Positions 6,670 through 33,777 of a stretch of 64,000 nucleotides of DNA are shown one piece after another (positions within the stretch are counted from its first letter, which is position 1; the number at the start of each line of letters is the position of its first letter). The DNA is taken from NCBI GenBank assembly GCA_928724745.1, contig CAKMXJ010000039.1:248001-312000 (forward strand). The letters run 5' to 3'. This DNA comes from Anthracocystis setariae (lineage: Eukaryota > Basidiomycota > Ustilaginomycetes > Ustilaginales > Ustilaginaceae). The translations under genes were made by a program, and so were the position numbers. Below the pieces are notes generated by a model, which saw only the letters and a list, made by a program, of their open reading frames with translations, was not told the origin of the DNA and ran no database searches.

Positions 6670-6886
6670 GATGAAATCACAGCTGAGCACCGCATGCAAA
6701 TCTGCCTCGGAAGTCGGCTGCCGTGTTGGTTCGCAAGCGGCCCGAGTTTTTTTTTGCAGCCCTTCAAAGTCGAAAAAATAGCAAAGTCGACTCCCTTCGA
6801 GGTCTTCGCAGGAAAATCGCAAATGAAGGTCGGATGTCCATGAATGTGCGCAAAAACAGCTTCCAGAAGCGCAGTCGTCGCCTGAG

Positions 6887-6894
6887 TATATATT
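6887..6894 (+). promoter_or_regulatory. TATA-like box of the U2 snRNA gene
   Basis: TATATATT lies about 30-40 bases upstream of the inferred U2 5' end, the distance expected for a TATA element. The assignment depends on the U2 call. Confidence 0.6.
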
Positions 6895-6925
6895 CCCAAG
6901 GTCCGCACGCCTCCCTTGGGCCGAA

Positions 6926-7192
6926 ACGTCACTCTTCTGGCCTATTGTAAGTCTGCCCCATAGCTCTGCGACAACGCTTTCCCTTCGAAGAAATTGGCTT
7001 CTGACTGTATTCGCATTCCTCTCTTTCACTGCCGCGATTCTCAATCATACAGGGCTTAGATCATGTGTAGTATCTGTTCTAAATAGATTGACATCTATTT
7101 CTCCTCGCTCCGGCGAGGAATCTATTGTCATACACTTTTTCCTTGCGGGGGGTCACCGCTCAGGTGCTTGCATCTCGGGACCTCGAGGATGT
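6926..7192 (+). ncRNA. U2: U2 spliceosomal snRNA gene, split by an intron
   Basis: Exon 2 begins at 7053 and carries the nearly invariant U2 segment GTGTAGTATCTGTTCT (7065-7080), including GUAGUA at 7067-7072, which pairs with intron branch points. It is followed by a perfect 8-bp stem IIa (7081-7088 with 7093-7100, loop TGAC) and a perfect 7-bp stem IIb (7102-7108 with 7113-7119). Next come a U-rich Sm-like site at about 7134-7142 and a stem IV candidate (7159-7165 with 7180-7187, loop containing UUGCA). The 5' part of U2 is missing directly upstream but is found 106 bases away: TCTTCTGGCCTATT ends at 6946 and is followed by GTAAGT. Joining 6946 to 7053 gives TCTGGCC-TATT-GGCTTAGA, the canonical stem-loop I with one bulged U. 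The 5' end (6926) and 3' end (7192) are estimates from structure and from the TATA position. Confidence 0.92.
6947..7052 (+). other. GT-AG intron inside the U2 snRNA gene
   Basis: It starts GTAAGT and ends ATACAG, 106 bases long, a size like the protein-gene introns here. A CTGAC branch-point candidate lies at 7001-7005 and a CTCAA at 7040-7044. It sits exactly between the UAUU loop and the 3' strand of U2 stem-loop I, and its removal restores the U2 sequence. Confidence 0.85.
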
Positions 7193-7864
7193 CCTTGGCC
7201 CTACACTTCCGCCTTGGGACGTCCGCCGTTCTCTTTTTTTCAATTCGCTTGGTTATGTAATCGTGTGTAATCATATGATTCGTGTAATCCTGGAAGCTGC
7301 GCATTCTTGTTTTGCGAGTCGATTTGGGTGGCTACTTTTTCGTGAATTGTGTTGAAATTGGCTAGAAATGATGGCCACAAAACGAAGACCAAAAATTTCA
7401 CCAGGCACGCGGACATGTATCAAAGTAGTGGCGCGTAAGCTTGCGACCCACATGCTAGCTCATTTGTAGCAACTGCCCAACATGACTTCAACAGACGCAA
7501 GCGTCATTGTGAATCGACATCCAGTCCCCTGATGGCCAAACAAACTGGTCCAGGGACGCCGGCGTGGTCTCAAAATCGCGCCAACTGAGCCTGGAAGAGC
7601 AGATCGGACTGTCGGTCGGACTTTGTTTTAGAGGCAATCCGACTCCACGAAACAAACACACACACCGCACGCGATTTGCGCCTTTCGCGTTGAGCCAAAT
7701 TCCTCGCGCAGCCAAATGTTACACTTTGAAGACTTTCTCAAGCCAGCCATGGTCCGCGCTCTTTTTGCAGCTTCGCAGCAAACTTCACGTCCTCATCAAC
7801 GCTCACCGACACCACCATCCCATCGGAACATCCGAACGTCTGTTCTGTCCGGATAAACGCAACG
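7193..7864. other. intergenic region, U2 3' flank and PIF1 promoter
   Basis: No gene seen. GGATGTCC at 7187-7194 can pair with GGGACGTCC just past 7215, so the U2 transcript could extend somewhat beyond the stated end. The rest is presumed promoter of the helicase gene. Confidence 0.55.
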
Positions 7865-31098: not shown

Positions 31099-33777
31099 AT
31101 GCGCTCGATCGTAGCGTCCACATGGTTGGCAGCATGGCTGCTCGCCCTCCTTTTCACAGCAAAACCTATCACAGCTCGAAGTCGTCAGAATGGTCCGCTC
31201 CAGCGAGTCGCCAGGACAACCAATGTCAAGGTCGACTTATTGCCTCCAACCACCTCATCTTTGCATCATGCTCATCTGCAATCACGCTCAGATGTCGCCG
31301 ACCAGCCGCCTATCCGCCTAAGCTTCCGTGCTTTCCACCAAGATTTTTACTTGCATCTTTTGCCAAACGATCACCTCTTACATCCCGACGGCACCCGCGT
31401 CAACTACTATGACTACAACCAAACTTCCGGCCAAACCTACCTGCGCACCACAGAGACCCTCTTCCCGGGCGACGTATCTGCTTATCATGGCGTCGTTGTC
31501 CATCCGTCCCACTCGTCTCGCAGATTCGAAGAGGACCGCGTCGGCGTGTTCCGAAACATCTACCAGGACCGCGACGTTGGCATCGTCGGCCGAGCCTCCA
31601 TCCTTCTTCACGACGATGGCTCCCTATCCGGAACGCCGTCCTTCGAAGGAAGCTTTGATTGGTTCGGCAACGTGCACCACATCGACACACCCCGCAGTTA
31701 CATGGCCAAGCGCCAAGTCGGCGATCCCACGCTTGAGCCACGCTCCCAGCAAGTCGGCTCCATGGTGGTTCACCGAGACTCGGACATCACCCTGCAGCCT
31801 AGAGACGAGCCTTCCTTTTCCAACGTCACCCTTGCTCAGCCATCGTCCGCCGCTACTGCATGCTCCTCCGACGCGCTTTCCTACAATTCCCACAATCCAC
31901 TCGTGCTTAGCCAGGACAACAACGTTGCCAGCAGTCAGTCGGTCTACTCGTTCTTTCAGCTACCCACCCCGGCTCGCTTGACTCGCAGAGATCTCTTCTC
32001 GGGCTGGAACGACCTCTTCGTCCGATCCGAGCCACACGACGTCGTTGAGGGTCCTTTGGCCTCCCCCGATGGCTTCGTTTACCACGACGAACTCGACGAC
32101 TATCTTGCACCCACCTTCCGCAAAAGGCAGGCCACCGGCAACGATGTCGGTAACGGTGGCAATCAGAACAACAGCTTCAGCAACGTCATCGGTTCCACCG
32201 CCGGCTGTCCCAACAGTGCGCGCGTCGTCTACGCCGGCATCGCCTCCGACTGTGCCTACACCCAGCGTTGGGGCAACCGGGACGACGCACGTACACAGAT
32301 CCTCAACAACATGAATTCCGTCTCGAACCTGTATCGTTCCACGTTCAACATCTCGATCGGTGTCGTGGAGCTCGATGTTCGCGCAGGCGACTGCCCCACC
32401 ACCGCCTCGAGCGATGCGCCCTGGAACATTGGTTGCGGCACCTTGAGCATCGACGAGCGTCTAAGCGCCTTTTCACAATGGCGATCGCAGCAGCCTGCCA
32501 ACGGCATTGGTCTGTGGCATCTGATGACCGCATGCAATTCCGGCAGTGAGATCGGTGTCGCTTGGTTAGGAACAGTGTGTACCACCACCGCTGCCACGAG
32601 CGGTGGACAGTCGGTCAGTGGTACGGGTGTCAGCTCCATTACGCAGCAACAGTGGCAAGTCATGGCCCACGAGATCGGTCACAACTTTGGCGCCATTCAC
32701 GACTGCACCACAGGATGCTCCAGCAACTCCAACTATGCTGTCCAGGCAGGCGGCGCCCCATGCTGCCCGCTGTCCACTTCGACATGCGACGCCAATGCAG
32801 CCTACATCATGAATCCATCCTCACGCGCCAACATCCAAAGTTTCAGCCAGTGCACCGTCGGCAACATCTGTTCCATGATCGGTCGGGGCCTCAACTCTTC
32901 CTGCATCCAAACGCCTGGCACCCGCAGCACGCTCAGCACCAATCAGTGCGGAAACGGCATCCTCGAGCCCGGTGAGGAGTGCGATGCTGGGCCTAACGGC
33001 TCGCAGTGTTGCACATCCCAGTGCAAGCTCACTACAGGGGCGCAATGCGACCCTAGCACAAGCCCATGTTGCACGAGCTCGTGTAGCTTTGCACCGTCAT
33101 CGCAGGTCTGTCGCCCGGCGGTGGATGTTCGTTGCGATACCGCAGAGTACTGCTCCGGCACTTCTGCCACATGTCCCAACAATGTCGTCAAGCAGGACGG
33201 CCAGTCGTGCGGAGACGGCCTTTCCTGCGCCAATGGCTACTGCACCTCGCGCGATTTGCAATGCCGGCAAGCCTCGACGGGTTCGGTGTCGTTCCGATCC
33301 GCCTGCTCGGCTTCCAACGCCAACTCTTGCCAGCTTACTTGCCAGAGTCCTACTTCGAGCAACCAGTGTCTCATCCTCCAGCAGCCCTTCATCGATGGAA
33401 CCAGCTGCGGCTATGGAGGCCGATGTCGCAACGGTTCGTGTCAATCCGGCTCATGGCAGACCACCTTCCGAAACCTGTACCTGGATAATCTGCGGATTGC
33501 CATCCCAGTGACGATCATCGTGGGCATCATCGTGCTCGTGATTCTATATGCCATGGTTCGTCGATGCTGCTTCTCGCGGCGCAGTAGGGGAGCAACCCAC
33601 GCCGGTCCAGGTGGCAGGCGGGTCAACGGATCCGCCTTTGCCGTGCCCAAGCCACCAGGGACGCCGCAGAGTAGCAATGCTCCGATTCCTCCGCCACCTG
33701 CGCACGAATCGTATCGCGCCTCGCGCACCTCGAACTGGGTAGACCCAACAGCATATAACGGGCCGAACCGAAGGTAA
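31099..33777 (+). CDS. ADAM-type membrane-anchored zinc metalloprotease
   Basis: Single exon, 892 residues. An N-terminal signal peptide (about 1-26) is followed by a long prodomain with several dibasic sites (for example MAKRQVG, LTRRDLF and FRKRQATG), which a Kex2/furin-like protease may cut. The reprolysin catalytic site HEIGHNFGAIHD covers residues 524-535, with the three zinc His and the catalytic Glu525 present. Next comes a disintegrin-like region with CGNGILEPGEECD and many Cys, then a Cys-rich segment, a transmembrane helix near 797-817 (IPVTIIVGIIVLVILYAMV) and a short basic then Pro-rich cytosolic tail (PIPPPPAHESY). This is the full ADAM order found in a few fungal proteins such as S. 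pombe Mde10. It probably sheds cell-surface proteins; substrates are unknown. Confidence 0.95.
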   Translation: MRSIVASTWLAAWLLALLFTAKPITARSRQNGPLQRVARTTNVKVDLLPPTTSSLHHAHLQSRSDVADQPPIRLSFRAFHQDFYLHLLPNDHLLHPDGTRVNYYDYNQTSGQTYLRTTETLFPGDVSAYHGVVVHPSHSSRRFEEDRVGVFRNIYQDRDVGIVGRASILLHDDGSLSGTPSFEGSFDWFGNVHHIDTPRSYMAKRQVGDPTLEPRSQQVGSMVVHRDSDITLQPRDEPSFSNVTLAQPSSAATACSSDALSYNSHNPLVLSQDNNVASSQSVYSFFQLPTPARLTRRDLFSGWNDLFVRSEPHDVVEGPLASPDGFVYHDELDDYLAPTFRKRQATGNDVGNGGNQNNSFSNVIGSTAGCPNSARVVYAGIASDCAYTQRWGNRDDARTQILNNMNSVSNLYRSTFNISIGVVELDVRAGDCPTTASSDAPWNIGCGTLSIDERLSAFSQWRSQQPANGIGLWHLMTACNSGSEIGVAWLGTVCTTTAATSGGQSVSGTGVSSITQQQWQVMAHEIGHNFGAIHDCTTGCSSNSNYAVQAGGAPCCPLSTSTCDANAAYIMNPSSRANIQSFSQCTVGNICSMIGRGLNSSCIQTPGTRSTLSTNQCGNGILEPGEECDAGPNGSQCCTSQCKLTTGAQCDPSTSPCCTSSCSFAPSSQVCRPAVDVRCDTAEYCSGTSATCPNNVVKQDGQSCGDGLSCANGYCTSRDLQCRQASTGSVSFRSACSASNANSCQLTCQSPTSSNQCLILQQPFIDGTSCGYGGRCRNGSCQSGSWQTTFRNLYLDNLRIAIPVTIIVGIIVLVILYAMVRRCCFSRRSRGATHAGPGGRRVNGSAFAVPKPPGTPQSSNAPIPPPPAHESYRASRTSNWVDPTAYNGPNRR

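Follow-up and report, generated by a model that had tools for sequence, protein, structure and literature searches.

The sole U2 snRNA gene detected in the smut Anthracocystis setariae (Ustilaginaceae) very probably carries a 106-nt U2-type intron, positioned in stem-loop I at the point where the loop passes into the 3' arm. The gene is situated on the forward strand of a 64,000-nt stretch of genomic DNA, termed here the window, in which the Rfam U2 model RF00004 matches positions 7019-7231 (+) with 106.4 bits (gathering threshold 46; E = 1.8e-20 over the window) and the alignment covers all 192 model positions. Exon 1 (6926..6946, +, start approximate) comprises the 5' end, the U2/U6 helix II strand, and the 5' arm and loop of stem-loop I. 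It is separated by the predicted spliceosomal intron (6947..7052, +, GTAAGT...ATACAG) from exon 2 (7053..7231, +), to which RF00004 assigns the 3' arm of stem-loop I with the helix I strand, GTAGTA, stems IIa and IIb, the Sm-like site, and stem-loops III and IV.

The diagnostic features of U2, namely GUAGUA, stems IIa and IIb, the GCUUGC loop, and stem-loop IV, are present in the sequence and in the Rfam alignment. The branch-site-pairing GUAGUA occupies 7067..7072 (+), and stems IIa and IIb, each of which is fully paired, occupy 7081..7118 (+); AAATAGAT and ATCTATTT form IIa around a TGAC loop, and CCTCGC and GCGAGG form IIb around a TCCG loop. The Sm-like site, placed by the Rfam alignment at 7134..7142 (+), reads ACTTTTTCC and deviates from the usual Sm site form, A-U(5-6)-G. 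The start region of the gene given in the original prediction, which spanned 6926..7192, is retained, the 5' end being estimated near 6926-6931 and known to within a few bases; the 3' end had been placed too early, as the RF00004 match extends through stem-loop IV to ~7231, beyond 7192.

The U4 gene also appears, from its sequence, to be split by an intron, and we lean towards a scheme in which the spliceosome of this smut must splice its own U2 and U4. Each intron would split or abut a U6-pairing strand, the precursors would be inert, and the resulting loop would be self-sustaining; no earlier case of an intron in a U4 gene would then be known, and snRNA introns would extend beyond the catalytic-core RNAs. 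On the strongly favoured reading of the U2 gene, a TATA-driven precursor, presumably made by RNA polymerase II, would start near 6926-6931, existing U2-containing spliceosomes would excise 6947-7052 via the branch site at 7004, and splicing would join the helix II strand of exon 1 to the helix I/branch-recognition strand of exon 2, upon which stem-loop I would fold. Here we infer that the U2 gene is transcribed and that its precursor is actually spliced. Removal of a U2-type intron needs both U2 and U4. Since the U2 precursor is without the normal stem-loop I and the U4 precursor would be without an intact stem II strand, both should be inert until spliced. Unspliced U2, which lacks the normal stem-loop I, is probably inert, and the supply would depend on U2 that the cell already contains or has inherited. 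The putative U4 intron would interrupt the U4 strand of U4/U6 stem II, and U4 seems to be subject to the same self-dependence. The earlier proposal that the maturation of U2 needs U2 is well supported at the level of sequence by the mRNA-type intron in stem-loop I.

A further reading, which concerns purpose and is compatible with the self-splicing scheme, is that the introns are kept as a report on spliceosome capacity, with the U2 and U4 precursors serving as a positive-feedback check on snRNP supply. Two of the four snRNA genes found look split, at places where the precursor should fail to pair or fold normally, but sequence cannot tell regulation from neutral retention, and we consider this reading unlikely.

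Splice signals and the joined stem-loop I

The quoted strings of the original prediction were confirmed in place: TCTGGCCTATT ends at 6946, GTAAGT runs from 6947, ATACAG ends at 7052, and GGCTTAGATC starts at 7053, leaving a gap of 106 nt. Once 6946 is joined to 7053, the sequence regains the universal U2 5' end together with stem-loop I, UCUGGCC-UAUU-GGCU(U)AGA, in which all seven of the seven pairs are formed around the UAUU loop with one bulge (-6.5 kcal/mol). The canonical stem-loop I with its 4-nt loop and the U2 5' end appear only after this joining. The joined U2 aligns with two real U2 genes from other contigs (L066 and L091) through CTTCT-GGCCTATTGGCTTAGATCA, with scores of 62 and 60, whereas the unspliced U2 aligns with the same two genes only from GGCT onward, with scores of 46 and 46. 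An mRNA-type (U2-type) spliceosomal intron at 6947-7052 in U2 stem-loop I is thus well supported by the sequence, in agreement with the original prediction.

The features expected of a U2-type intron, that is, a 5' splice site, a branch-site candidate, an AG-free tract, and a 3' splice site, are all present. The best branch-site candidate is CTGAC at 7001..7005 (+), whose A (7004) lies 48 nt upstream of the 3' splice site, and the sequence from there to ATACAG is free of AG; AGs are located at intron positions 4, 16, 43, and 105 only. The intron also contains a second yUnAy, with an A 24 nt upstream of the same splice site. Position 6947 is the sole GTRAGT within the upstream kilobase, and among the 74 GT dinucleotides of that kilobase the best preceding match to exon 1 is also at 6947 (score 9; next 3). 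When the upstream kilobase was shuffled 2000 times with dinucleotides preserved, a score of 9 occurred ahead of any GT in 2 shuffles and ahead of GTRAGT in 0. The junction had been chosen in the original prediction before testing, and the rank tests are checks on that earlier choice.

Pairing with U6 provides a further comparison. The stretch CTCTTCTG (6932-6939) of exon 1 is perfectly complementary to CAGAAGAG of the U6 from the same genome, which sits between the U6 internal stem-loop and the 3' hairpin, a stretch that we take to be the expected place of U2/U6 helix II. Exon 1 pairs with U6 at -12.8 kcal/mol, whereas the unspliced 5' end does so at -6.3 kcal/mol; the exon 1 value is the third best among 72 GT sites, and 101 of 5000 shuffles attain it. 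When the U6 stretch is lengthened to take in the 3' hairpin, exon 1 drops to fifth of 72 and 122 of 2000 shuffles attain its energy. The U6 pairing gives moderate support to exon 1 and is supporting rather than decisive.

Promoter and start of the U2 gene

A TATA box, TATATATT, is located at 6887..6894 (+), 47 nt before CTTCTGGCC in exon 1 and roughly 39-44 nt upstream of the estimated 5' end. No other TATAWA is present in 6700-7100, and there is no TATA inside the U2 intron. The contiguous U5 gene carries TGAGTATATAAG, in which the TATA precedes the first Rfam-aligned base, GCACTCTC, by 45 nt, a spacing close to that at U2, the 5' end of U5 being approximate as well. Further upstream, the element GCAGCCCTTCAAAGTCGAAAA is located at 6756..6776 (+); within it, the best 21-base stretch has 19 of 21 bases matching the U5 upstream region and 16 of 21 matching the U6 upstream region. 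The match to U5 exceeds those of all 500 shuffles, and the match to U6 is reached by 7 of 500. Upstream of U4 no standout element was observed, the best match of 14/21 being reached by 335 of 500 shuffles. The pattern CCCTTCAANNTCG has its sole match in the window at the element upstream of U2 (6756-6776), and the element is found 170, 156, and 63 nt before the approximate starts of U2, U5 (L141), and U6 (L002), respectively; it is perhaps an snRNA promoter element common to Pol II and Pol III genes. The spacing of the TATA box, together with the upstream element in common with U5, argues for a U2 start at exon 1 and not at 7019.

A likeness between U2 and U4, CAAGG(N)CCGCAC, was considered as a promoter motif and set aside; it has 44 sites genome-wide, and 130 nt from each, read by eye, contained no further snRNA gene. 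The motif alone is no evidence because it was drawn from the U2 and U4 genes themselves.

These observations bear on the alternative that there is no intron, with U2 starting near 7019 in a contiguous stem-loop I with a large loop and with 6926-6946 as a chance look-alike. The contiguous stretch 7019-7231 does score 106.4 bits over all 192 model positions, and free folding of the unspliced 5' end (7019-7090) gives -10.9 kcal/mol, as low as the -10.6 kcal/mol of the joined 5' 52 nt; stem-loop I is formed in the joined molecule and the unspliced one adopts a different fold, the energies themselves not separating the two. In the contiguous version, however, the 5' end is built from intron bases 7019-7052, with TCACTGCC as the 5' arm, and the resulting stem-loop I has a loop of 19 nt vs 4 nt in the consensus, five standard pairs of seven by manual count (one of the two others is flagged as broken by cmscan), and an energy of -3.0 kcal/mol. 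This poor stem-loop I is drawn from the intron tail because a covariance model cannot skip introns. The lack of a TATA in the intron, the box at 6887 standing 47 nt before CTTCTGGCC of exon 1, the canonical splice signals, an exon 1 match attained in just 2 of 2000 shuffles, and the weaker U6 pairing of the unspliced 5' end also stand against a contiguous gene, which we regard as highly improbable.

Copy number and the other snRNA genes

One RF00004 match was found in the 21.5-Mb, 36-contig assembly in a family search that scored 46 of 185 first-look candidates, and the 15-base U2 core GTGTAGTATCTGTTC occurs once in the assembly, even when one mismatch is allowed. The original prediction had named a second intact, expressed U2 gene, with this copy silent, as a finding that would count against it; as far as searched, with those 46 of 185 candidates scored, no other match emerged. 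It is highly improbable that this copy is a pseudogene or otherwise inactive and that a working U2 elsewhere was missed: the share of candidates scored and the off-consensus Sm site speak for it, and against it stand the single match by both covariance model and core, the intact stems I (joined), IIa, and IIb, and the TATA box and element in common with U5.

The U5 gene (L141) is contiguous and scores 36.6 bits (E 0.003), below the gathering threshold of 40; it is absent at E <= 0.001 and was recovered by a relaxed family search. The U5 loop pattern has 22 sites in the genome, the true U5 gene (L011) being among them. The U6 gene (L002; G000:C36:310882-310985, minus strand) matches RF00026 with 40.2 bits, below the gathering threshold of 44, and its internal stem-loop is divergent (ATTGTCCCAGAAGTTATGGATGACA). 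Both the U5 and U6 genes look uninterrupted. For U1, the family search returned nothing at E <= 0.001. A U1 candidate at E 0.16 (18.5 bits) was rejected, the cmscan of its locus not reaching E 0.1, and among 10 exact ATACTTACCTG sites none was followed within 700 nt by any of the Sm-like patterns tried and none was U1-like by eye. U1 was not found by these searches, which does not amount to absence.

Comparison sequences were obtained with GTGTAGTATCTGTTCT, which occurs in 39 stretches of the genome contigs searched, with real U2 genes in L066, L087, L090, and L091 (the last two on one contig), and in 20 stretches of the viral contigs, none with U2-like flanks by eye. The comparison contigs searched included no smut relative. 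The four U2 genes are eukaryotic, and their presence in contigs assigned to bacterial MAGs points to contamination.

Apparent intron in U4, precedents and origin

The U4 gene (L003; G000:C3, minus strand) scores 56.8 bits in the Rfam search. Its candidate intron of 270 nt (GTAAGT...CTACAG; G000:C3 1163003-1162734, minus strand), identified from the sequence and from the pairing with U6, has the junctions ATCCATCTTC|GTAAGT and, 270 nt later, CTACAG|TGAGGCAGG. The Rfam 5' end of U4 is built from ATCTACAG, which we read from its sequence as the tail of the intron. A CTGAC within TTACTGACC places its A 127 nt before the acceptor, and the interval is AG-free. Pairing with U6 reaches -20.6 kcal/mol for the joined 5' end of U4 vs -6.4 kcal/mol for the unspliced form, and U4/U6 stem II is rebuilt. 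The like architecture of this second snRNA gene also speaks for the intron in U2. This splice is the best of 36 GT sites for U6 pairing, the next being -15.9 kcal/mol at GTTCTG. The junction was noticed by eye, through GTAAGT and the U6 pairing, before testing, and the rank test is a check on that earlier choice. Because the U6 internal stem-loop is itself divergent here, the complementarity between U4 and U6 is a specific check, which the spliced form passes. A GATATC 44 nt before the U4 ATCC is a weak TATA-like candidate. Comparison of the U2 and U4 introns gave a likeness score of 18, against a mean of 17.3 and a maximum of 30 for 300 shuffles; the two introns are thus alike no more than chance, and a common recent source is unsupported.

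Rhodotorula hasegawae is a basidiomycete yeast, and introns in U1, U5, and U6 are known from R. hasegawae or Rhodosporidium. Introns have been reported for U1, U2, U5, and U6 but are not known for U4. The U2 intron described here resembles that of R. hasegawae in being an mRNA-type intron within a U2 snRNA gene, as indicated by the title of Takahashi et al. (1993), cited in PMC2586383; among the R. hasegawae snRNA introns listed in the original prediction, the title bears out that of U2. The present case differs in its host, a member of the Ustilaginaceae, in the apparent splitting of U4 as well, and in U5 and U6 genes that seem uninterrupted. The named hits to one protein encoded in the window place the host in this family, the best of them (80% identity across 97% of the first 500 residues) coming from Ustilago trichophora. 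According to a 2017 paper on U3 introns (PMC5832005), frequent interruption is known among small structured RNAs for U3 and U6 alone, and U3 snoRNA introns are removed by the pre-mRNA splicing machinery. The present genes resemble the intron-containing U6 genes of fission yeast and other fungi and the U3 snoRNA genes in that introns occur in small structured RNA genes. In contrast to those cases, U2 and U4, with a TATA or TATA-like sequence upstream, are the genes that look split, and U6 is contiguous. No report of a U4 snRNA intron was found in the literature searched, most subscription papers being outside its coverage. The U2 intron belongs to a kind already known, here in a new lineage, and the apparent U4 intron beside it makes it a variant; to our knowledge, a U4 intron and a smut host are new.

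The original prediction proposed that the intron may have come from reverse splicing into an snRNA near its catalytic helices. The U2 insertion site, one base before a GCU that is presumably the U2/U6 helix Ib strand, fits such an origin, and the putative U4 intron weakens it. U4 is released from the spliceosome before catalysis, and the U4 site is therefore a misfit for reverse splicing at the active site. The insertion contexts are ATT|GGC in U2 and TTC|TGA in U4, neither of which we take to be a classical proto-splice site. With U2 and apparently U4 split while U5 and U6 seem uninterrupted, the idea of active-site insertion can be put to the test, because the active spliceosome does not contain U4. 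More generally, snRNA introns render the splicing machine dependent on itself and bear on the origin of introns in RNAs that are never translated. The U2 and U4 genes also serve as a warning that a contiguous covariance-model search puts the 5' end of a split gene in the wrong place, both having been assigned one built from what we read as intron sequence.

Elsewhere in the window, an open reading frame at 31099-33774 (+) contains M12B metallopeptidase (reprolysin) and disintegrin domains, an ADAM-like arrangement in a fungus.
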